Assembly (NCBI GenBank): GCA_021018995.1
Contig: CM037585.1
Coordinates: 121,170,331-121,234,330 of the forward strand
DNA from: Chloranthus sessilifolius
Lineage: Eukaryota > Streptophyta > Magnoliopsida > Chloranthales > Chloranthaceae
Direction: 5' to 3'
DNA length: 64,000 nt
Made by a program: the position numbers and the translations under genes
Notes under the pieces: generated by a model
The model's database searches: none
What the model was told of the DNA's origin: nothing
What the model saw: the letters and a program-made list of their open reading frames with translations, nothing else
Part shown: piece by piece, positions 2,078-55,695 of the stretch
Layout of the letters: the number at the start of each line of letters is the position of its first letter
Numbering within the stretch: position 1 is the stretch's first letter

Positions 2078-3580
2078 TCACGCCGTCCCCTCTCTTGGAG
2101 GATCTGATGTAGGGGCAGGCTGCTCTAGTGGGCTGGATTTGTGGTGGTCGTCTCCGTGGTTTGTGGGTGACCGTCTCAATTTGTTGTCTTTGGCATCGAG
2201 CTAGATGCATCGGTTGTAGAGGTACCCGCGTGGAAGACTGGACTCGTGTGGAAGGCGGTCCGACCTACTGTCCACGCCTCCTCCTGTGCAAGGCGCTGCT
2301 GGTAGTCTAACGGATAGATGTACCGCATAGTGTGGTATATAAGAAAGTCCATCCGCCGGTTCATCCGCTTGTTGTTGGCCTCCATCCTGGCCAACACTTC
2401 CTCGATCGTCGGAGCCTGGCGAGCCTCTCACCGGTGATATGAAGAAGTGGGTATCGCTGCCGCAAACTGCGCTGGCAGCGTAGGAGATGCAGTGGTATGG
2501 GAGGGTGCTCCCTCCGTTGGTGGCTCAATCGGGTGTGCCCCACCCACGGGCGGGCCCTGATGTGGTGGTGGTGGTGCCACTGGTGCTGCTACTGCTGGTA
2601 CTACTGGTGCAGGACCCGGAGCCGGTAGGGTCCGCTTCAATAAATTGTAGCTACGGCTCCATGAAGAGTTCGAAAATGTCTTCACTCGGTCCGTTGCCCT
2701 CTCCTCATGGGGCGATATCACGTACCCGGGAGCATTGGAGTAACACTCCAACATGCTCGAGATGAGTCGAGCGTAGGGCATCTTTTCTTTGGGCCTCAAG
2801 TTGCCCTTCATCAACTTGCCCTTAATGTATCTCATCCCCTCTAGGATGAGCATCGTGGCGTCAAACCAACGGCCACAAAAGGCCACATAGAGTGCCTGTT
2901 GCACTTTCTCCACCCTTTTAGTGTCGTGTCTCAACGGGTAGAGGTTACACTTGATTATGGACTCAAGCATCCACATGTAGTGGGGAAGGTGGACCCTCTT
3001 AATGGAGGATCCCGACCCCTTCTTCCCGTTGGTCATGCGGGTCATGATCTCCTCAAATCTCACCTCCTCCACGAAGGGTGGAAGGAGGGTGGTCTCGGGT
3101 GCGGGTGCGAAGTCGAGGTAACATTCAAGTACCTCATGGATGTGGCGACGGGTGAATGTGTAGTCGCGACCCTCTATGGTGGTCTTGACTACGTCATCGG
3201 TAGGTCCGTCCACGAGACCTTGGTAGAATAGTCTAACCAACTGACCCACGGATTGGTTTCAAGATATTGCCGAGTCCGGCTTTTAGAAGGTAATTATGAG
3301 CCCATTGGGTCTCGCCCGATACATTGGGGTTTGTAAAAAGGGTTTGATCGATGATGTACTCGATCTCAAAGGTCTTAGCCGCCCACCACTCGTTGGGTTG
3401 AAGTACATTGGTGGGTGGTGGTGGCATGCACGTAGACTCGCGCGAAGCCGCGCTTGTCGAACCGGAGGTGGTCTCCGATGCCGACGGTGATGGGGTAGGT
3501 GGTGGCGGTGCAGCGTTCTTACGCCCGACCGAGAGTTTGGAGGTTGCCTTCTTTGAAGACAAATGGGTTTTAGGCGGCAT
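2078..3580 (-). pseudogene. E1 aORF (putative plant transposon protein-like), broken
   Basis: Starts at ATG 3580 (MPPKTHLSSKK...) with a Ser/Pro/Ala-rich, basic N-terminus, then NEWWAAKTFEIEYIIDQTLF, a globular region with VRLFYQGLVDGPTDD, EGRDYTFTRRHIHEVLE, YMWMLESIIKCNLYPLRHD, FCGRWFDATMLILEGM and KMPYARLISSMLECY, and a Pro/Ala-rich linker. This layout resembles the 'putative plant transposon protein' accessory-ORF family; I could not run a profile search. An 11-nt net deletion near 3240, compared with E4, shifts the frame. A TGA at 2428-2430 follows ...SSYHR, yet the same frame continues with VLARMEANN and MNRRMDFL down to 2176. A TGA at 2078-2080 matches the conserved last codon of the E3 and E4 copies. 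It lies downstream of pol, in sense, where an env would be, but has no signal peptide or membrane segment. Confidence 0.7.
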
Positions 3581-18180: not shown

Positions 18181-18182
18181 AG

Positions 18183-18257
18183 TGTGCAATAGTGGGAATC
18201 GAGATGATCCCGTCGTGACGATGCACTCTCTAACGAAAATATCATATAGAGTCGCCA
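18183..18257 (-). other. Tat-type PBS and leader stub left of the T1 LTR
   Basis: TGGCGACTCT on the minus strand (18248-18257), two bases from the LTR end, matches the start of Tat/Ogre primer sites. About 65 bp of leader then stops at the E2 integrase breakpoint. Confidence 0.6.
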
Positions 18258-18908
18258 CCTGGAGCTTTCGGTGTCCCGGGATACCTAGTTCATTTTTATG
18301 AGCACCTAAGTGCTAAAAATATGACTCTGAATCCGGTCCACACCAAAGGCTCTTGGGTAGGGGCTTCGATTATCGATCGAGAAGGTGTTAGGCACCCGAT
18401 CAACCCGCTTAACGCGGTCTCTACTAATAGCCAAAAATAAAATGAAGTAAAAGAAAATAAAATAGCTTTCTCTTGCCCAAAGGGGCTTAGAATCTTATTT
18501 GTACCCCTCTGTTCCTACCGAAAAGTCGGCGGCGTGACGGCACAAATGGGAGGAGGGAGGGAGTTAGAAAGAGATAGGAGAAGAAAGGGGAGAGCCGGAG
18601 CCCTCGGGCCCTTGTAGCACCGTAGGAGAGCCTTGCATTGGCTTGCTTTGATGAGCTCTTGAAGGCTTTGTATGGTGAAAAGTGGGGTTCTAACTCTTAA
18701 GGCTTGAAGCTAAGAGGTAGGGAAGGGAGGCTAGGGGATCACACACACCTAACCTAAGGGTTTTCTATGAAATGCTAAGGTTTAAAGGAGTTTTGTGAAT
18801 TTTAGAATTTGTATGGGGGTGTCCACCAAAGGGAGAAAGATCTTCTCACTTTAAACTCTTTCTCTCTTAGGTAGAAATTCTCAACCCTTAAGCAAGAGGG
18901 GTGGCTCT

Positions 18909-18918
18909 CTATTTATAG
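18909..18918 (-). promoter_or_regulatory. TATA box of the T1 LTR promoter
   Basis: CTATAAATAG on the minus strand, the usual plant LTR TATA form, about 310 bp downstream of the palindrome triplet. Confidence 0.7.
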
Positions 18919-19230
18919 AGAAAGGGAGGATTAGTGATGGGTTAAAGTCCTAATTGGATTAGCAAATAGGTAATGGGCAATCTAAGATTTCCTAAGGCTT
19001 TTGGAGCCTCGAAATGTGTGGAAAGGTCTTCCAATGATAGATGATGGGGTGAGGCCTTAAGCCACTTAAAGGGGTACAAATAGGCTTCAAAAGGGTGCAA
19101 CAGAACTAGCAAAGTACAACCCAAAGGTCAAGATGGTCAACAAGTCAAACCCCAAACACAAAATTTGGGGCAAAATCCAATAGTTATTATTCATATGCCT
19201 GGAAAAATCCAAACCCCAAACACAAAATTT

Positions 19231-19340
19231 GGGGCAACTATTAGTTGTGCCAAGCATAAAATGAGGGAGAATTGGCCTGGGGTAACTATTAGTTGCGCCA
19301 AGCAAAGTTTATTACTGGCGCAACTATTAGTTGTGCCAAG
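19231..19340. promoter_or_regulatory. T1 palindrome triplet in LTR
   Basis: Three copies of a GCGCAACTATTAGTTGCGC-type palindrome centred at 19241, 19289 and 19327 (spacing 48 and 38). Copies have one or two arm mismatches; the intervening bases differ. Confidence 0.85.
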
Positions 19341-19720
19341 TCCCTAAGGGGGCCCCATGACCTTAACTTTCTGCCCCCGGATTCGGTTTGCCATATCTTT
19401 TGACGTATACCTCCGATTGGGGCGATCCTTGGACCGTTGGAAAGCTGACAACCTCTACTCCTCAATGGTATGAGACTTGATCACAGTAGAGAATCGTAGG
19501 TAGTTCCAATACACCACTCTTCATCCATATCCTGAGAAGGTTAGGTTTAGGGTTTGAAATGGATTCTAAGGGTAGGGATTGGTTTCTAAAGGTTCAGGAT
19601 AGGTCCTTGAGGGATCTAGGGTGATTCCTAAAGGTTCCATACATGCCATCAAAAGCTTGAAATTGCACCTCTCTCAAAAGGTATTTCGATCGGGCCTTAG
19701 GCCAAATTTGGGTGTCTACA

Positions 19721-21410
19721 GAATGCCCTCTTTGGTATCCGATCACTAATGATCGTATGCCAAAGAAAAGAGACATCCGAAGGGGCCCAAGGTAATACTG
19801 ATGGGTCCGCTGCATTCAAAGCAAACTTCAAACATCAGGAGAGTAACACGGTGAGAAAACGAAAGCCCTGGGGTGCCAGGCAAATCATTCGTTTCTCGAG
19901 GTAATCGGTTCCCAAGCGCTTAGCGACATTACTAGGCATAATCGAGGTGGAATGAGTTGTGAAAGCCCAATAGCTAGGAAAAACATTCGCCTCTCGAGTT
20001 GCGAAAGCCCGTTAGTCGAGAAAAATGTCTGCTTCTCAAGATGATTTGAAAGTGATTGATGTTCGAGATTCATTTTGAATGCAACAGCTTCATAAGTAAG
20101 AGGGGTGATCGACCCACATTCAAAGATAGGCGCGAAGTAAACATACGCAAGGCTCCACAGTTTGTGTCCAATCCTTCAAGGCATTTGATGACCTCATTGG
20201 ATTATTTGCGGGTGCCCTGCTGAAAGCAGGGTTCGAGATCTTTGGGCGAACTCGTCGATCCCAAAGTTTATTTAGGATGACCACCCAAGCGAAGTGAATA
20301 GATGTCACAACGTTTTTTGAGAGTACGTGCCATTTTTTGAAAGCATGCCTCACCTCAGTATGACCTAGAGTATCCAGTTTCGACTTCCTTGAATAGATCC
20401 AGCCAAACATTGGGTACCTCCCAAAAGGGGGCATCCAATCCTGGCCTCTGTTGACAATGATCATAATCATCAATTAACTATGCATAATCATACACCCATC
20501 GGGAGCAATAAGCAACAACAAAGGCGATGGAAGCCCCGACCCGAACCCGCCCGAGTATGATTTACGGGGACAAACGACCATCATACGGATACCTAGATGC
20601 ATTATGTACACTTTACAAGGATACTATTTCCCATACAGGTTTTAAGCCTGCAGAAAATAAAAAGGGAAATGATCCCTTCTGAATGCATGGTTGCACATAG
20701 TTTGATTGACACATAATCTCATTCTCAATAGGTTGGTCTCAAAGAATGATTGACCTTCCAACGGAGAATTTGAAGCTTAAGACACTTAAGTTCACATGAA
20801 TCCAAAACAGAGCGCTCATCGCAAAGATTTAGCAGTGGAGTCGACTCGATCGAAACATTGGCTATTTGATCGGGACTGACATTTTTGCTCCTTCCTTGAA
20901 GTAGGATCCAAAATCCAAGGCGTGCCTTAGACATAGGACATTTATTACATTTATTATAGCACAATGGTGTTGCTGATAAAATATCGACATTTTACCGCAT
21001 CAGAATATGCATGTGCGTAGCTCTGTGGGGAATACAGATCTGTTTCTGATATATGTATTATTTTTTTGGATTTTCAAATTATTTTATGTGATTTTTTTTT
21101 TGGAATTTTGAAGTTATTATTTCCTGTGAATTTTTTTGGGATTGTTTTCGGCTTCTCTATGGGAATTCTTCTCTTTTCTTCTTTCTCTCTTTTTTTTTGG
21201 ACTTTTTATATTTCCGATGTAGGACCGAGGTGCTCATCGACCTCGGTCCGCCTTTATTTTGGCACGGCTTCCTCGGCAAGTCGACAGATGATAGAAATGC
21301 CATTCCGGGAGCGCGCTCGTCTACCGAGGGTGATAAAACAAATAAAGAGGAAGGGGGGAACCGGCCCTCCTATCTGGCCCGTACCAGGCCCAAGACCCGG
21401 CCTAAGTACC
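19721..21410. other. T1 non-coding stretch between LTR and accessory gene 1
   Basis: It begins with the PPT-like purine stretch on minus. Short frames are present on both strands but I recognise no protein. It may contain the 3' UTR of the element transcript. Confidence 0.5.
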
Positions 21411-21533
21411 TGGCATAACTAATAGTTGCGCCAGGCCACTAGGGGCCTCAAAATAGCCTGGCGCAACTAATAGTTGCAACAAGCAAAAGGAGGGCAAAAT
21501 TTTTCCTAGCGCAACAATTAGTTGCGCCAGGCT
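21411..21533. promoter_or_regulatory. T1 palindrome triplet upstream of accessory gene 1
   Basis: Three copies centred at 21422, 21470 and 21518, exactly 48 bp apart. The core is AACTAATAGTT or AACAATTAGTT with CTGGCGC-type arms. A weak TTTAAA lies just after (about 21546). Confidence 0.87.
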
Positions 21534-21723
21534 TGGCTGGGGGAATTTAAACAACCCAAGTTCGGGCTGGGGAGCTTTGTTTCGAAATTTTCTCCCCCTC
21601 CTTCTTTGAAACCGAAAACCGCCTCTTCCTAGGGTTTTCTTTTATTTCCTCATTGTTGTTGCCCTGCTTGTGTGGATCGAGTGTCGGCTTACGCTAGATC
21701 AGAGACCCATCTTCTTTCAAAAG

Positions 21724-22546
21724 GTAACCATTAAAACTTACTTCTTTTGATTTCTCTTGCTTTTTCTTATAAATATTGCTATGATCTTGCATTCTTTGAT
21801 GAATAATGGTTTATCTTCATTGTATGCTTGTTTATTGATGATATGTTGGCAATTTTTCATGAATGGTGCCCTATTTTTGTTATTTTGTAGAATTTGTTGG
21901 TGCCTAATGCATATATATATATATATATATTTTATTTTTTTTTGTTTATTTTTATTTGTGTATATAGAATGGACTTTATTTTTGTTGTTTTTTCTTTTTA
22001 TTTTTTTTTATTTTGCATATATTGGATTTTTGGTCTTTTCTTTTTTTGAACACTAAATTAGAAAGAAGAAGGGATTTTAGGTTTCTTTCTTTTGAAAATT
22101 AAGGAAATGATTTTTGACTTCTCTTGAAATTAAGAGAACAAGAGATTTTATTTGTTTGGGAAAACCAACTAAGGCATTTTAATTAATTTTTGGTTGTTTT
22201 TTTTTCTAATAATAAGGATTTTTTGTTGTTTTGTTTATTGTTTTTTATTTTTAGGAGCATAAAAGAAAGGGATTTTTTTTGTTTTGAAACATTAGATTTT
22301 TTATTTTTCTTTTCTTATTTCTTCTTCGCCCCTTTTTTGTTTAAACAAAGTAAAAAGTTTTTTTTTTGTGTTTCTCCTTTTTTTTTTGAAAGAACAAAGC
22401 AAAGTAAAAGGTTTTTTTTTTTTTTTTTAATTTTTTTTTGGAAAGAACAAAGTAAAAGGTATTTTTTTTTATTTTTTTTTGTGAAAGAAACAAAGTTGCA
22501 CGTGTATCTTTGTACTTAACTAGCTGTGATTGCCTTGTTGCCCCAG
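21724..22546 (+). other. Predicted 5' UTR intron of T1 accessory gene 1
   Basis: Donor AAAG|GTAACC at 21723/21724 and acceptor TTGCCCCAG at 22546, one base before ATG 22548. The 823-nt intron is extremely T-rich (runs of 8-16 T at 22340-22480), as plant introns are. Confidence 0.5.
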
Positions 22547-24989
22547 TATGTCAGGCGGTGATGAGCACCTTCTCGAGGAGGGACCCGAGATCCTTTGTGG
22601 CCCGCGGGGGGAGGAGTTTGTCTGGGTGGAACGGAGAGTGGGCCCATGGCTCGAGATGCAGGGTGAGGCCGCCCGGGTCGGCCTCCTTCACCAGCAGCAC
22701 ACTCATATTTCAAACTTTGGGATAGCAGGCAAGGTAAACGAAAGGTTCAATTTATTTCCATTACGCACTCTCTCTCTTTTTTTTTTTCTTTTTTGCCTCC
22801 TTGATCTGATGTGCATTTTCTTTGGGTGCAGGACCTGCCCCACATTGTGTTCCGCGAGGGGTGGCTCAACTTTCACGAGTTCTACCTCTACGTCCCCCCC
22901 ATAGTGAAGGTCTTGTTGGAGCGGGTGGGCTTTGGGGAGTTCCTGTCTTGTCCCGCCATGAGGGCTGACCCTGCCTATTTGAAGGCCCTGATTGAGAGGT
23001 TTCGCCCTGAGACCATGACATTCCATATGTCGTATGCCAAGATGATGTTGACGCCCGTTGATTGGGCCATGATTACCGGTATCAGGGTAGGGAGGATACC
23101 GATATCTGATCTCGCGGTACCAAGCCAGGAGGACATTATTCGACTGATTGGGGCCTATCCTCCTTGCGGGCAGACCCATTGCACAGAGGTCAAGATGTCT
23201 TGGCTGACCTCCCTTTTTTCCGCTAATGAGTTGGTGGACTTGGGTCAGCCAGATAGGGTGCTCTACATCGCGCCAGAGCGGGCATTCATCTTAGCTCGCA
23301 TCACGCTCCTACTCCTACTGGGCAAGACCCTTTTCACAAATGCCAGCGGGGGCCGAGTCAGCTTGGCCCTATTGAGCATGATGGACAATTGGGGTGAAGT
23401 CCCTAGGCACGAATGGGGAGGGTCAGGGTATGCGTGGTTGATGTACAATTTGTCTCGGGTTACAACCGGGGATTCGAAGTCTGCCGTGGGTTTTTAGGCC
23501 GCCCTAGAGGTAATTTCGCATCCCTTTGCCCTTGTCAAAAATTTTTTTCATGACCTTTATGTTCTATTATCCTGCTCTTATGTGTTGTCTCTCTCTTTTT
23601 TTTTTTAGGTATGGGGAAACCACCACTTCCACCTCGGGCGCCCGCTCCTTTTCTCGGAAGGGCTCACCTATCCTCTGCTCAACAACCGGCATCAGGCCCG
23701 AAGCCATGACGTGGGCCTAAAGCACCTGGAAATGGGCCTAAGGTCCCAACTTGATTTGATGGTCCCTGAGCAGGTAACAACTCTCATTTCTTTCTTTTCT
23801 TTTTTTCAACCTTTGTTTATTTTTAGCTTGGAAATTTCCTTTGACTGAGGTGTTGCTTGCTTGGTTTCTCTCTTTTTTGACTTGAGCAAATCCTCCCCGA
23901 TCCGTACCTTGCATCCCCCTTCTGGGATCGAGCAGCTGTAGGTGCCTCCCGCTTATTCAATAATCGCCACGTCGTGTTCTTTTACAGAGTGTGGGCTAAA
24001 TTTTATTACTTGGGAGAGCGAGTGGTGCACCAGTTTCAGGGCTATTATGCCATACCCGTGGACCCTCTGGCGGATGTCTGGTATTCTGTTGGCAGCATCG
24101 AGGAGCTCACAGCGGCCTTCTTCAATAATGGGCTCCCTATCCATGCCCTTCACGTGCCCAGGGACTATCACCTTTGGTACGAGTGCTTGCCCCATCGGTT
24201 CATCCTACCGTGCTTTGTTCCCAGCACCAATTTTCTGGCATTTGGTGGCCTGGTTGGTCAGGTAATTTGCCTTGGCTTGGATTAGTTCCTTTTATGCTTT
24301 TATTTGGCTTTTGCCCCCTCCAAGTGGATCTTTATTTTGTTCACAATTCGCCCTAGGGGATGATTCGGATGGTGAAGGCGAACCCAATGTGGCTGATATG
24401 TTGGGGGTGGATCCTTTTGGTGCTGGTCCCTCTGGTGCAGGTCCCTCAGGTGAGGGCTCGTCGGGTGCTGGTCCATCGGGCACTTCTCATGCTGGTATCC
24501 CTGCTGGTGATCCATCCGTAGTCTATGGGACCTTCCGGTGCCTTGATGATAGCTTCCTTTCGAGCCTCAGCACTGACGTAGATCGACAGGCACGACTCTC
24601 TGCCGAAGCGGCTCGCGTTCCCCCTCTTGAGGTGGTCCCAGGGGAAGTCCTTTGATGGCCCAATCTCCTTTCATTTCGGTTTCTTTCTGCACACGCTTTC
24701 AGGATTGTCCTGACCTTTGATATTGCATTGTTCTGAATATAGGACTTCAACTCGGCCATGGAGTATGCGGCATACCATCGTCACATGGCGAAGCTTAGGG
24801 AGGTTGAGACGGTGAGTGCCTTGCTGTTCTATTCCTCTTTATTCATTTTATCAACATTTGCCCTTTAACTGATCCTGACTCCTGACTTTGGTTTGTGCTT
24901 CGCAATGTGCTCGTGCTAAGGAATCGCGCTCCTTACTCAGCAGGATTTCACAGGCGTGGTCTAGGGTGGGGAACATGCGAAACTTTTAA
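22547..24989 (+). pseudogene. T1 accessory gene 1, plant mobile domain-like, multi-exon
   Basis: Predicted exons: 22547-22733 (ATG 22548, MSGGDEHLLEEGPE...), 22832-about 23514, 23609-23773, 23887-24261, about 24357-24655, 24743-24811, and a last exon ending TAA 24989. Most junctions have clean GT and AG. Exon 2 holds FREGWLNFHEFYLYVPPIV, RFRPETMTFHMSYAKMMLTP and WAMITGIRVGRIPI, the shape of the plant mobile domain (PMD; MAIN/MAIL-type). A GAGPSG-repeat linker is near 24415-24500 and a helical KLREVET segment follows. A TAG in exon 2 (23495-23497) and a phase mismatch between exons 4 and 5 suggest decay. Antisense to pol. PMD proteins are linked to silencing in Arabidopsis; the role here is unknown. 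Confidence 0.6.
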
Positions 24990-25410
24990 ATTTCTTCTCG
25001 CCACCGTAAGAAGTCAAAGGGCGCAAACCAGGGATAGGCCTTTAGCTTTTTGAAAAACTCAGTACTTTTTGGAATTTGATTTGGATCTATTTAAACAATT
25101 TGGGGGATGGTCAATGTGGTACTTTGGAAACAAATTTTTTTTTTTTTTTTTTTTTTGGAAGATAGTTCCGCTTTGATTTTATGCCCCGATTTCTTGGTAT
25201 CAGATCTGTTTCTCTGCAGGATGTGTTGGCCCAAATTTTTTTTGGAAAGTGACTCCTTGGGTTGCATGCCTTGATCTAGGATTAGCCCTGCACATAAATA
25301 AACAAAACAAAAGCCCAGCTGTTAAATGAACAGGGTGTGTGAAACAAACAAAAGGGGTGTAAGTCCCCCAGTTAGGTCCCGAAATGGCTGAAGAGGGGGA
25401 GTTCGGAGTG

Positions 25411-25531
25411 TGGCGCAACTATTAGTTGCGCCAGGTCAAGATCTCACACAATTTGTGCTGGCGCAACTAATAGTTGTGCCAGGCAAGAAAGGGGGCCAAA
25501 ATGCACTGGCGCAACTATTAGTTGCGCCAGG
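25411..25531. promoter_or_regulatory. T1 palindrome triplet upstream of accessory gene 2
   Basis: Copies centred at 25422, 25470 and 25518, again exactly 48 bp apart. Two are perfect GCGCAACTATTAGTTGCGC; the middle one has one arm change. Spacers are unlike those of the other triplets. Confidence 0.88.
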
Positions 25532-25554: not shown

Positions 25555-25562
25555 TTTATATA
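25555..25562 (+). promoter_or_regulatory. TATA box of T1 accessory gene 2
   Basis: TTTATATA, 24 bp after the last palindrome and 136 bp before ATG 25698. It repeats the array-TATA-gene order seen in the E elements. Confidence 0.6.
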
Positions 25563-25697: not shown

Positions 25698-27148
25698 ATG
25701 GACCCGCTTTCCAACCCTCCCTTACGCAGAGGGCCCAGAGCCAATTTGCCCCCCTTGTTGGGCTTGGTGCCTAAATTTTTAACGGCCTGGTTTGGGAGCT
25801 TGAATGAGAGTGAGCTCGCCGATTTGGAGCACCTCGGGCTATCTCGCCTTCCTTCCTTCCTAAAGGTTCCTCTTTGGTGGGAACTTCTTCATGTCGCCAC
25901 TTCATTTTGGGATGTGAACTTCCACATATTTCATTTTGGGAAGCGGGAGCTAACCCCAACCCTTGAAGAGCTATCTAATCTGTCTGGCCTGAAGCTTCAC
26001 AGGGGCCTTGCAAGGGTCACGCCTCGGCTGGGCTATTCCAAATCCGTTCACCTTACTCTCAGTTTGAAGAAATCCGAGTATGAGAAAAGTCTCATTAGGG
26101 GGCCCACAAGGTGTTCGCTAAAATTCCTCAAAGAACTTTTTGGCGATGAAAGTCTCCGAAAATTGCCGGGTAGGAATGTTTTTAATGTGAAAGCTCTAGC
26201 ACTCAGTCGCATCTCTGAAATCCTTTTCTTCACCGGGGGAGAGAGCTTCATTGGCGCTTAGATATTTGATGATGAGGTGGGCCGGTCCATGACGCATTTA
26301 GTGCTTGCTGAGCTATACTGATGCCTTGATTCCTTTGCCTTGGGTAAGGTGGAGGGCCTTCGGGGATGTCCCTTGTTGCTTCAGGTCTGGTTGGGTGAGC
26401 ATTTTGTTGTTTTGGGGCCTGTGCCCCGCTTTTATATTGCCCGAGGCAAGGTGGCCCAATGTTTTCTGGATAGATGCCACTTGCTCCCCCAGGGCGATAT
26501 GTCAGCTCTAAAACTTTGGTTGATCGATGCTGACCTGACATGGAGGCTTCCTTTGTTGGATCGGTCCTTCCCGATAATTCGTAGTAGAGATCACGAGGGC
26601 ATCACCCTCCTAGGATTGACGGGTATCACCTTTTACTTCCCATCCTCAACAGTTTTCCTAGTGAGGCCGCACTCTTTATGTGATTTGATCTTTCTAGGGG
26701 GGTCCTTGGGACATAGATCTGATTGCCGCTTGGGAGAGACGCACCAACCGCCGATGTGTGATATTGAGCAGGAGACCTGACTAGACTTCTCCCGAGTACG
26801 AGGCCTTGCTATCTATGACGGCTCACGATGGTCCAAATTTGTCAGAGATTATCGACATCGAGGGAGGCCTGGTCAAAGAAAGAGACGGCACTCCGAGCCC
26901 GCATCGAGTTACTGGTGGATGAGAAGAGGATCCTGCAAGAACTTTTAGCATATGAAAAGGTTAGAGTAGAAACAGCAGAGAGTGAGGTCCTTCATTTGAA
27001 GGGATCACTGAGCATCGCTTTTGGAGCCCCTGATTCTTCTCGAAAGAGGTTCAAGAGCCTGCATGGTCATTGGCTGACTGAACGGAATGTTCGGGAGGAT
27101 GACCTTCATGCAGAGATTAGCGCTTTGAGGCGCGAGCTGGGTCGCTAA
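25698..27148 (+). pseudogene. T1 accessory gene 2, mobile-domain/DUF7745-like with coiled coil
   Basis: From ATG 25698 (MDPLSNPPLRRGP...) the frame runs to 26780, with a TAG at 26259-26261 and a TGA near 26301 (where the next residues CLDSFALG keep the frame). Motifs: LWWELLHVATSFWDVNFHIF, FGKRELTPTLEELSNLSGL and CPLLLQVWLGEHFVVLGPV. This is the layout of the plant DUF7745/mobile-domain accessory proteins; a profile search would decide. A shifted frame, 26828-27148, encodes a coiled-coil-like helix (ARIELLVDEKRILQELLAYE) and a charged tail, probably the original C-terminus. Antisense to T1 pol, with its own TATA and palindromes. Confidence 0.6.
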
Positions 27149-28507: not shown

Positions 28508-29600
28508 GTGATAGACTAAGAGTAGAACCGTCAGACGTATCCAGCGTTGATGGGCTCAGGAAGATGATCTCCGTCCATGGCGGTGAGGTGGATGGCGTAT
28601 CCCGGCAGCACTTCTCAGATGACGTAAGGTCCTTCCCAGTTCGGCTTGAACTTTCCTCTCGGATCGGCGTGGAGGGATGGGATGATCTTCTTCAGCATAG
28701 TGTCTCCTACCTTTAGATCTCGACCGCAGACACGTTTATTGTAAGCGTGTGCGATTTTCCCCTGGTAAACTTGAGTGTGACACAAGGCTAGGAGTCTCTT
28801 CTCGTCCAATAAGTTTAATTGTTCAAAGCGGGATCTCTCTCTTTCTGCTTCGGGTAAGCCTGTTTCTATGAGGATTCGGAGCGAGGGTACTTCAACCTTT
28901 ACCAGGAGGACGGCCTCGGTTCCATACACAAGGGAGAATGGTGTTGCCCCTGTAGCGGTACGGATCGATGTTCAGTAGGCTCACAAAGCAAATGGCAGCA
29001 TTTTGCTTCAATCTCGATAAGTGATGACCATTTTCTCAAGGAAGAGGATGATTGTCTTGTTCGCGGCTTCCACGGCTCCATTAGTTTGAGGCCGATAAGG
29101 GGATGAGCGATGGTGCTTGATCCGGTATTGCTCGCAGAAGTCTCGGATGCGCTTATTCGTAAAGTTTGTGTCGTTGTCCGTGATGATATCTTTGGGTACT
29201 CCAAATCGCCACACAATATTGTTCTTGAGAAACTTCTCAACGTGACTGGCCGTGATGTTGGCATATGACACCGCTTCTACCCACTTGGTGAAGTATTCAA
29301 TGGCAACGAGGATGAACCGATGTCCGTTTGATGCTTTCGGATTAATCATTTCGACAATGTGAAGGCCCTAGGTAGCAAATGGCCAAGGAGTGGTCATGCA
29401 GTGAAAATCAATGACAGGAGCGTGTATTAGACTAGAGTGTTATTGAAACTTGTAGCATTTTTGAACATGTTTGCGACAATCCGATTCTATGGTGGTCCAA
29501 AAGTATCCCTGTCATAGGATTTTCTTAGTGAGCATGTGACCGTTGATGTGGGCTCCGCATACTCCCTCATGGATTTCTATCATAATATTGACCGCTTCAC
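28508..29600 (-). pseudogene. T1 integrase, broken
   Basis: From the N-terminus (29600 downward): HHCC finger pieces (HEGVCGAHINGHMLTKKI, CRKHVQKCYKFQ), core with NPKASNGHRFILVAIEYFTK, IITDNDTNF, PYRPQTNGAVEAANK, then MYGTEAV and KFKPNWEGPYVI of the Tat C-terminal tail. The expected first catalytic Asp (GID context just before INPKAS) reads His, and a TAG replaces the preceding Trp. Frameshifts split it into overlapping frames at 28615-28929 and 29008-29349. Inactive. Confidence 0.85.
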
Positions 29601-29763: not shown

Positions 29764-30744
29764 CTAAGGTGGCTCATCATCAGGCTTTGTAGGTTCCTCA
29801 ATATAGAGGCAGAAGGCTGGCTCATTCCTCTGCTCGATCCTGATTGGCTTCATCTCAACACCATAGGGGATTTCAATCATTGATGCCAAAGTTGCTAATG
29901 CGTTGGCAAAGCGTTTCCTTATCCGGGGGACGTATGAGAAAGTCACATCTTGGAAGCAAGCTATCAGATCCTAGAGGTGTTCATGATAGGGGATCAGTTT
30001 CTCATCTTTCGTCTTCCAGTCACCATTCGTCTAGCATATGATTAATTGTGAGTCGCCAAACACTCGAAAGTTAGTTATATTCAAATCAAGAGCCACCTGC
30101 AGACCAGCGGCGCAAGCTTTGTACTCAGCCATATTGTTAGTGCACAGGAAGTTAAGCTTGATAGAGACCGGTACATGGTATCCTTTCGGTGAAATCAGGA
30201 TGGTGCCGACTCCTTGGCCATCGACATTTGTTGCCCCGTCAAAGTGCATTACCCATGATTCTTCTGCTTCTTCTGTATCGTCTTCTGTCATGAACAGGAT
30301 GTTCTCATCGGGGAACTCAGATCTCAAAGGCTCATAATCAGGTAAAGGATTGTCGGCAAGATGATCAGCAAACGCCTGCCCCTTGATCGACTTCTGAGTG
30401 ACGTACATAATGTCGAATTCAGATAATAAAAGTTGCCATCGTGCGATTCGTCCAGTGAGAGTTAGCTTTTCAAATAGGTATTTCAATGGGTCCATTCGGG
30501 CCAAGAGCAGAACCGCCTGAGATAGCAAGTAGTGGCGGAGCCTTTGAGTAGCCCATACAAGAGCCAGGCATGCTTTCTCCATATGAGAGTAGCGCACTTC
30601 ATAATCAGTAAACTTCTTGCTCAGATAGTAAATGGCTTGCTCTCTTCTTCCCGTTTTATCATGCTGCCCCAAGACACATCCCATCGAAACTTCCATCGTG
30701 GAGAGATACATCAAGAGTGGTCTCCCTGGTTCCGGTGGTACCAA
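29764..30744 (-). pseudogene. T1 RNase H plus second (archaeal-type) RNase H
   Basis: The first RNase H has YYLSKKFTDYEVRYSHMEK, LRHYLL and ARWQLLLSEFDI. The second begins WVMHFDGATNVDGQGVG and continues NNMAEYKA and FGDSQLI, so its D-E-D residues are visible. The 29764-29946 segment continues the linker (VPRIRKRFANALATLAS). A duplicated RNase H of this type marks the Tat lineage. A stop ends the frame at 30031. Confidence 0.88.
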
Positions 30745-30768
30745 AATAGGTGGATTAAGGAGGTAGCT

Positions 30769-54260: not shown

Positions 54261-55451
54261 TCACCGACGATATGAAGAAGTCGGTGTGGCCGCCGCGGAC
54301 TGCGCTGGCGGCATAGGTGAAGCGGTGGTATGGGAGGGTGCCCCCTCCGCCGGTGGCTCAACCGGGTGTGCCCCACCCACGGGTGGGTCCTGACGTGGTG
54401 GTGGGGGTGGTGGTGGTGCCACTGCTGCTGCTGCTACTGCTGGTGCGGGACCCGGAGTCGATAGGGTCCGCTTCAGTAAATTGTAGCTACGGCTCCATGA
54501 AGAGTTCGAAAACGTCTTCACTAGGTCCATCGCCCTCTCCTCATGGGGCGATATCGCGTACTCGGGAGCATTGGAGTAACACTCCAACATGCTCGAGATG
54601 AGCCGAGCATAGGGCATCTTCTCCTTAGGGCTCAAGTTGCCCTTCATCAACTTGCCCTTTATATATCTCATCCCCTCTAGGATGATCATTGTTGCATCAA
54701 ACCAACGGCCACAGAAGGCCACATACAGTGCCTGCTGTACCAACTCTACCCGCTCAGTGTCGTGGCGCATCGGGTAGAGGTTGCACTTGATTATGGAATC
54801 AAGCATCCACATGTAGTGTGGGAGATCAACCCTCCTAATGGATGATCCCGACCCTTTCTTCCCGTTGATCATGCGGGTCATGATCTCCTCAAATCTCGCC
54901 ACTTCCTCGAAGGGTGGAAGAAGGGTGGTCTCGGGTACGAAATCGAGGTAGCACTCAAGTACCTCATGGACGTGGCGACGGGTGAATGTGTAGTCGCGAC
55001 CCTTTATGGTGGTCTTGACTACGTCATCGGTAGGTCCGTCCACGAGACCTTGGTAGAATAGTCTAACCAACCGAGGGTAGTAGGACCCACGGATTGGTTT
55101 CAAGACATTGCCGAGGCTGGCTTTTAAAAGGTAATTACGAGCCCATTGGGTCTCGCCCGGTACATCGGGGTTTGTAAAAAGGGTTTGATCGATAATGTAC
55201 TCGATCTCAAAGGTCTTAGCCGCCAACCACTCATTGGGTTGAAGTACAATGGTGGGTGGTGGTGGCATGGGCGTAGACTCACATGAAGACTCGCGCGAAG
55301 CCGCGCTCGTCGAACCGAAGGTGGTCTCCAATGCCGACGGTGATGGAGTCCTCATCGGTGATGGGGTAGGTGGTGGCGGTGCGGCGTTCTTATGCCAGAT
55401 CGAAAGTTTAAAGGTTGCCTTCTTTGAAGACAACCGAGTTTTAGGTGGCAT
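54261..55451 (-). CDS. E4 aORF, 396 codons, best preserved copy
   Basis: ATG 55451 (MPPKTRLSSKKATFK...). Residues 1-65 are basic, then Ser/Pro-rich. A folded-looking region at about 70-320 has NEWLAAKTFEIEYIIDQTLF, PRLVRLFYQGLVDGPTDD, KGRDYTFTRRHVHEVLECYL, MLDSIIKCNLYPMRHDTERV, FCGRWFDATMIILEGMRYI and KMPYARLISSMLECYSNAP. A Pro/Ala linker follows. It resembles the 'putative plant transposon protein' accessory ORF type. No catalytic motif, signal peptide or membrane helix is visible. Preceded by its own TATA box and palindrome array. The TGA at 54261-54263 may be a decayed Arg codon (E5 has CGC there). Function unknown; a DNA-binding or anti-silencing role is only a hypothesis. Confidence 0.7.
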   Translation of the reverse strand: MPPKTRLSSKKATFKLSIWHKNAAPPPPTPSPMRTPSPSALETTFGSTSAASRESSCESTPMPPPPTIVLQPNEWLAAKTFEIEYIIDQTLFTNPDVPGETQWARNYLLKASLGNVLKPIRGSYYPRLVRLFYQGLVDGPTDDVVKTTIKGRDYTFTRRHVHEVLECYLDFVPETTLLPPFEEVARFEEIMTRMINGKKGSGSSIRRVDLPHYMWMLDSIIKCNLYPMRHDTERVELVQQALYVAFCGRWFDATMIILEGMRYIKGKLMKGNLSPKEKMPYARLISSMLECYSNAPEYAISPHEERAMDLVKTFSNSSWSRSYNLLKRTLSTPGPAPAVAAAAVAPPPPPPPRQDPPVGGAHPVEPPAEGAPSHTTASPMPPAQSAAATPTSSYRR

Positions 55452-55695
55452 TTTGGTGAAAAGTTTAAGAAACTAGGGTTTTTTGACTCAATTTGAAACA
55501 AAAGACTCGAATCTAGGGTTTAATAGCTCAAATTTAACAAAACTAGGGTTTACCATAGGTTTTTTATCCGATGTAATGCGATTTTGATCCGAAATCATCT
55601 CGAAATGCTCAAACCCTATGTTGCAAAATCGGTCGGAGAGAAGAAGAAGAAGGTGTGCAAAGAAATGAATTCGAATGGAAAGAAAATCCCTTCGA

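Follow-up and report, generated by a model that had tools for sequence, protein, structure and literature searches.

T1, a retrotransposon bounded by long terminal repeats (LTRs), lies in a 64,000-nucleotide stretch of the Chloranthus sessilifolius genome (GenBank assembly GCA_021018995.1, contig CM037585.1, positions 121,170,331 to 121,234,330 of the forward strand; hereafter the window) and carries one palindrome in three arrays of three. A preliminary description of this DNA had placed the arrays in the LTR and before each of two accessory genes, with 48 bp between centres in five of six intervals and 38 bp in the sixth. This account holds in full: a motif scan with GCGCAACTANTAGTTGCGC matched nine times in the window, with 0-2 mismatches each, at exactly the nine centres proposed, and the LTR edges and the two genes, which code for plant-mobile-domain (PMD) and DUF7745-like proteins, lie where the three sites require them. 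The motif had no match in 100 dinucleotide-preserving shuffles. We refer to the sets as LTR, A1 (before the PMD gene, accessory gene 1) and A2 (before the DUF7745-like gene, accessory gene 2). A fourth class, A3, stands upstream of gag in other copies; no such gag-leader array was detected in the window. Centre-to-centre intervals are 48 and 38 bp in the LTR, 48 and 48 bp in A1, and 48 and 48 bp in A2. The palindromes are listed below, without strand and with a width taken from the 25-bp consensus.

19229..19253, LTR palindrome 1, centre 19241
19277..19301, LTR palindrome 2, centre 19289
19315..19339, LTR palindrome 3, centre 19327, after the 38 bp interval
21410..21434, A1 palindrome 1, centre 21422
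21458..21482, A1 palindrome 2, centre 21470
21506..21530, A1 palindrome 3, centre 21518
25410..25434, A2 palindrome 1, centre 25422
25458..25482, A2 palindrome 2, centre 25470
25506..25530, A2 palindrome 3, centre 25518

Aligning 116 units from sampled clusters and the window on their dyad gave an informative palindrome of 25 bp, CTGGCGCAACTAWTAGTTGCGCCAG, built around the core GCGCAACTAWTAGTTGCGC. Information drops sharply past position 12 from the dyad.

Genome-wide distribution of the palindrome

The 2.17 Gb genome holds 12,638 exact copies of the 19-mer, against about 0.02 expected, and none of the reversed 19-mer, used as a control. Elsewhere, the 19-mer was matched four times in 257 Gb of prokaryote genome contigs, where about 1.9 matches were expected, and once in IMG/VR; we treat these matches as chance. 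The first 50 exact sites listed, on contig C1 up to 68 Mb, fall into 36 clusters, of which 35 correspond to loci L001-L004 and L041-L072 (L002 and L003 being one cluster) and one to L015. All 36 lie inside the T1 family: 20 in LTRs, 5 at A1, 4 at A2 and 7 at A3.

The A3 array, with as many as four palindromes 46-48 bp apart, lies between the 5' LTR and gag (L073:3590-3740; also L044, L048, L056, L059, L060, L064 and L071). It adjoins an LTR cluster in five of the seven cases (L044, L048, L056, L060 and L064), at a distance of 0.8 to 2.4 kb and on the expected 5' LTR side, and gag-type open reading frames (ORFs) lie beyond it in both loci that were traced further, L073 and L074 (Retrotrans_gag, E 7.1e-13 in the latter). 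The family therefore has arrays at the LTR, in the gag leader and at both accessory genes. Proline-rich, repeat-like reading frames are also seen between A3 and gag (L074:1-1020, L073:1700-3100).

Copies chosen by the similarity of their flanks, and not by the palindrome, carry the arrays as well. A first look gave 2,950 flank candidates for A1 and 4,107 for A2, with 40 scored each. Three palindromes are present in 28 of 29 flank-found A1 loci (L006-L034) and two in the other (L013), with intervals of 47-49 bp, mostly 48. Among six longer copies (L035-L040), the A1 array is found in all six, a three-palindrome A2 array in four and an LTR array in three. L040 has two A2 palindromes 103 bp apart, homology with L036 ends before A2, and LTR homology with L039 and L040 starts only at 19668 and 19683.

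The host element and its accessory genes

By its domain content, T1 is classed as a giant Ogre/Retand-type (Ty3/gypsy) retrotransposon on the minus strand. Two features of the Tat clade are present: a second, archaeal-type RNase H between RNase H and integrase on the minus strand, and a long region between pol and the 3' LTR with extra ORFs, including one for PMD, a domain typical of Ogre. The reverse transcriptase is fragmentary in the window. No second LTR of the element was seen within the window, so this copy looks incomplete. Its main features are as follows.

18183..19720, minus strand, 3' LTR of the T1 Gypsy element, from the homology edges of sampled loci
18912..18917, minus strand, TATAAA in the LTR, a putative promoter element downstream (in the sense of pol) of the palindromes
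21546..21551, plus strand, TATA-like TTTAAA, putative, 28 bp downstream of the last A1 centre
22548..22733, plus strand, probable first coding exon of accessory gene 1, with predicted splice sites
22832..23494, plus strand, PMD-coding exon of accessory gene 1 (PF10536, E 3.4e-13)
25555..25562, plus strand, TATA-like TTTATATA, putative, 37 bp downstream of the last A2 centre
25698..26258, plus strand, DUF7745-like exon of accessory gene 2 (PF24924, E 0.0018, 17.8 bits, below the Pfam cut-off of 26)
29008..29367, minus strand, integrase core of T1 pol (rve, E 6.2e-16)
30031..30768, minus strand, RNase H followed by the archaeal-type RNase H of T1 pol (RT_RNaseH, E 2.8e-26; RVT_3, E 4.1e-7)

The left edge of the LTR falls at 18182-18200. 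At the right edge, homology ends at 19718-19725 in 12 of 20 sampled LTR loci, continues into the internal region in 6 and gave no call in 2. Both accessory genes lie between integrase and the 3' LTR, antisense to pol. ATTTAAA is present at A1 in 5/5 subfamily rows and TTATAT at A2 in 4/5.

In the window copy, an in-frame TAG at 23495 directly follows the PMD exon; the PMD exons of L036 and L040 contain no stop. Purifying selection acted in the past on both accessory ORFs: the ratio of nonsynonymous to synonymous substitution rates (dN/dS) against the window copy has a median of 0.55 for the PMD exon (range 0.29-1.26, 27 comparisons) and of 0.54 for the DUF7745-like exon (range 0.23-0.61, 9 comparisons), the latter falling to 0.23 against its most diverged relative (L067, dS 0.92). 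Neither the PMD nor the DUF7745-like protein showed a DNA-binding domain, and protein database searches with the two exons gave no match at E 0.001. A scan of four window ORFs for DUF1985, with E up to 1 allowed, was negative. AlphaFold gave no usable model of the PMD exon (predicted local distance difference test, pLDDT, of 37).

Conservation of cores and spacers

The preliminary description had stated that cores are conserved while spacers differ strongly, and had read this as constraint on the palindrome. The strong differences of the spacers are seen between units and between sites and not among close copies of one site; the constraint is supported between subfamilies and between sites and not among close copies. 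At subfamily depth, after one exact palindrome had been masked in each ascertained locus, the core is better conserved than the spacer in all four classes: 0.842, 0.752 and 0.702 for core, spacer and flank at A1; 0.864, 0.607 and 0.778 at A2; 0.850, 0.741 and 0.808 at A3; and 0.868, 0.670 and 0.730 in the LTR. This comparison is biased toward cores in that only palindromes with at most 5 mismatches count as core. A second version, scored by reference columns, removes the bias, and in it the core exceeds the spacer mean of its class at all 14 positions.

In each of the six pairings of classes, cores match at 0.82-0.85. Those of A3 agree with A1, A2 and LTR cores at 0.82-0.83 within non-homologous flanks, and the A3 spacers match those of A1, A2 and the LTR at 0.24, 0.32 and 0.25 (shuffled: 0.24, 0.26 and 0.25), that is, at the shuffled level for A1 and the LTR. 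The spacers of LTR, A1 and A2 are mutually somewhat alike (0.39-0.43 versus 0.27-0.28 when shuffled), most in the same orientation, so these three arrays may descend from one unit. A G-rich centre common to all three, in like orientation and about 24 bp away from the dyads, hints at a shared ancestral 48-bp unit or at a second protein site.

Spacing and unit number

Among 79 intervals shorter than 160 bp, 49 measure 46-48 bp, 10 measure 37-38, 15 measure 96-101 and 5 take other values. The 37-38 and 96-101 bp intervals are confined to LTRs, mostly in the order 97-48-38. All 48 intervals between 40 and 56 bp fall at 46-48 bp, while 48-base stretches of flank are shifted by at least 2 bp in 25% of cases at A1 (n = 97), 20% at A2 (n = 115), 10% at A3 (n = 162) and 4% in the LTR (n = 508), a comparison that is suggestive and carries no valid p value because the rows are related. 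Units are gained and lost in register, with two palindromes in three A1 relatives and four in one A2 relative. The earlier claim that phasing is constrained thus survives in part: the short intervals are tighter than the flanks, but in-register gain and loss of units could also have carried the spacing on by inheritance, and intervals of 37-38 and 96-101 bp occur in LTRs as well. We consider that the sequences lend moderate support to constrained phasing. Binding by a multimer, which the preliminary description had suggested as a cause, may lie behind it.

In several copies the LTR has four palindromes at a spacing of about 97-48-38, so the three of the window LTR look derived; the window LTR (19202-19226 versus its relatives) has neither the outer palindrome nor the gap found in them. 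No degenerate middle palindrome was found in the 97-bp gap, where the best candidates have 8-11 mismatches of 19. Between the first two LTR palindromes stands a conserved block, CAAATGYACAGTAAAACAGT ... GGGTGGGGYCCAC (for example L036:709-780), absent from the window LTR. The GTGGGGYCCAC-like end of this gap block resembles a TCP site. A helical-phase reading of the intervals, with 38 and 48 bp about one turn apart, was set aside; it rests on one inherited LTR interval.

Candidate operator arrays and alternative explanations

The arrays are found at fixed positions, in high copy number and within one family, with a shared core and near-constant spacing; their cores outlast their spacers between subfamilies, and both accessory genes bear coding constraint. 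We propose, with a probability of roughly 0.7, that the sets of palindromes serve as cis-regulatory operator arrays that bind a two-fold-symmetric protein and coordinate the promoters of the element. Each 25-bp palindrome would be a binding site for this protein, probably a homodimer, and three to four such sites at about 48 bp would form a module. Copies of this putative module would serve the U3 region of the LTR, the leader upstream of gag and, just before their TATA-like boxes, the two antisense accessory genes. Because the same module stands at all of these presumed promoters, one protein could act on them jointly, activation being a more likely effect than repression.

Several results weigh against this proposal. 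Among close copies, aligned as 30 A1 rows, 6 A2 rows and 8 LTR rows, the A1 spacers (0.940) are slightly more conserved than the 19-bp cores (0.911), the flanks standing at 0.896. CpG decay, at the 11-bp level, depresses the core somewhat (0.929 once the window's CpG columns are dropped). Equal conservation of spacers and cores had been named in advance as the result that would refute the constraint, in favour of simple recent tandem duplication; it is found at this depth of A1 and not between subfamilies. The corresponding values for core, spacer and flank are 0.905, 0.860 and 0.915 at A2 and 0.869, 0.760 and 0.809 in the LTR. At subfamily depth, the share of flank 13-mers that are equally conserved is 5% or less at only 7 of the 14 positions (1/3 at A1, 1/3 at A2, 2/4 at A3 and 3/4 in the LTR). 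Two A1 positions out of three and the outer positions of A3 do not reach this level, and the base comparisons behind some per-position values number as few as 19. In addition, the nearest LTR palindrome centre lies about 324 bp from the TATA box of the LTR, L035 has no LTR array (its homology skips from 19202 to 19344), and an RNA with two-fold symmetry also folds strongly.

The equal conservation in close copies, the in-register change of unit number between subfamilies and the likeness of LTR, A1 and A2 spacers, which hints at a common unit, would all suit a relic of tandem duplication, whose units and spacing were inherited without selection past or present. We regard this as very improbable: spacers diverge to chance while cores stay, cores exceed spacers at every one of the 14 positions, and the spacing is kept without indels. 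Hairpins, in genomic RNA or as cruciform DNA, might instead serve packaging, production of small interfering RNA (siRNA) or silencing. The arrays do fold far more stably than shuffles (z of -5.0 to -10.1 in four folds), as any palindrome must, and small-RNA hot spots have been reported at the LTR palindromes of Sireviruses (Bousios 2016, as cited in the part of PMC10760457 available). Among 124 unique palindromes, double changes across the dyad number 18, against 27 under independence, and 12 of the 18 preserve pairing; there is therefore no excess of structure-keeping covariation. On these results, sites in duplex DNA for a symmetric protein are favoured over hairpins with fair confidence. 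The letters themselves, beyond their pairing, are kept across non-homologous sites, A1 and A2 sit upstream of TATA-like boxes, and an siRNA effect would be a cost to the element and not a ground for conservation. We thus hold hairpins to be an improbable explanation, if a less remote one than duplication.

The binder of such operator arrays could come from the host or from the element. A host transcription factor exploited by the element, as stress factors serve many plant LTRs, is a serious candidate to which we give somewhat less than an even chance. The TCP-like block of the LTR gap would fit such a factor, but none of the 36 sampled clusters has the palindrome outside the T1 family, and most plant factor sites are shorter than a 25-bp palindrome. 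LTR repeat arrays that recruit host factors are the usual plant case, according to a background statement in the available text of PMC2829016. A binder encoded by the element itself, in the PMD or the DUF7745-like gene, would form a self-regulating trans-acting circuit comparable to those of foamy virus Tas or VANC. This is possible but rather unlikely in our judgement, and slightly more doubtful still is its specific form, in which a dimer of either antisense-encoded protein would bind the palindromes in the LTR, in the gag leader and before its own genes, and would activate the whole element or shield it from silencing. The arrays precede both accessory genes as well as standing in the LTR, the motif is confined to T1 in 36/36 clusters, and both ORFs were under past purifying selection; against this, neither accessory protein has a recognisable DNA-binding domain, and no solved relative was found. 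The available portions of two papers add that, in Arabidopsis, genes with a common promoter motif require the PMD proteins MAIN and MAIL1 for their expression (PMC7156037) and that a role of captured PMD in the anti-silencing of transposable elements has been speculated upon (PMC5418596).

Other features of the window

An ORF downstream of accessory gene 2 (26822..27148, plus strand) looks coiled-coil rich, an impression only, and had no curated Pfam match. Two mutually related long ORFs on the minus strand, at 2428-3258 and 54261-55472 (276 and 403 residues from stop to stop), adjoin other Gypsy copies in the window.

Comparison with known systems

The letters of the palindrome had no match in the literature text searched for them, and the other searches were by topic, so that its absence from print holds for these searches. 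The sources cited in this section are represented by the parts of their text that were available, and likenesses and differences are given within these limits. PMD proteins are frequent in Gypsy elements and related to host silencing proteins, with no DNA target described in these texts; the domesticated members MAIN and MAIL1 govern silencing in Arabidopsis. A self-regulating circuit in T1, if true, would provide the first DNA target and biochemical role for the family. A 25-mer found more than 12,000 times, and throughout our sample at promoters of an element encoding PMD and DUF7745-like proteins, makes a role of the accessory proteins directly testable.

Like T1, Ogre and Retand have the order reverse transcriptase, RNase H, archaeal-type RNase H and integrase (PMC6317226), a long region between pol and the 3' LTR, and antisense ORFs (PMC6317226, PMC11963269, PMC7264820). 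The same sources report PMD in 57% of Ogre elements and, in maize Grande, a gene23 with its own antisense promoter. Retand antisense ORFs and tandem arrays are treated in Vicient 2025, where the available text describes no shared palindrome (PMC11963269). More generally, these texts describe tandem repeats and no palindrome common to LTR and accessory promoters, whereas T1 has one.

VANC/VANDAL and foamy virus Tas are functional analogies only, and foamy virus sites are not known to be palindromic triplets. VANDAL21, with its anti-silencing protein VANC in Arabidopsis (PMC5735166, PMC10398659), resembles T1 as a transposable element whose own non-coding regions hold arrayed copies of a short motif, the motif set being specific to each family. 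It is however a DNA transposon, with a 9-bp motif in a single orientation within fast-diverging tandem repeats; VANC carries DUF1985 and the T1 proteins PMD or DUF7745, and binding is demonstrated for VANC while it is inferred for T1. In foamy virus, as in T1, one type of response element stands in the LTR and at an internal promoter (Tas/Bel1; PMC517496, PMC4929722, PMC8670036), but this is an animal retrovirus in which the element-encoded binder is proven.

The closest precedent is the palindromic repeated motif of Sireviruses, whose palindromic boxes precede the TATA box of the LTR and recur 5' of env, with a suspected regulatory function (PMC2829016). T1 likewise has dyad-symmetric copies of a motif ahead of the LTR TATA box and before internal genes, and in both the motif persists while its flanks diverge (PMC2829016). 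The two differ in lineage, Sireviruses belonging to Ty1/copia and T1 to Ty3/gypsy (Gypsy-type RT_RNaseH and archaeal-type RNase H before integrase), and in core, CGG-CCG as opposed to GCGCAACTAWTAGTTGCGC. The second Sirevirus site precedes the sense gene env, while T1 has its arrays before antisense accessory genes. Sireviruses also have mostly higher motif copy numbers per LTR, with no fixed 48-bp phasing described in the text available (PMC2829016), and T1 has four site classes. The phasing, the four sites and the antisense target genes thus set T1 apart from this precedent, within the same general design. T1 is a second, independent retrotransposon lineage that repeats one palindrome at its LTR and accessory-gene promoters, and its likeness to Sireviruses points to convergent regulatory design.

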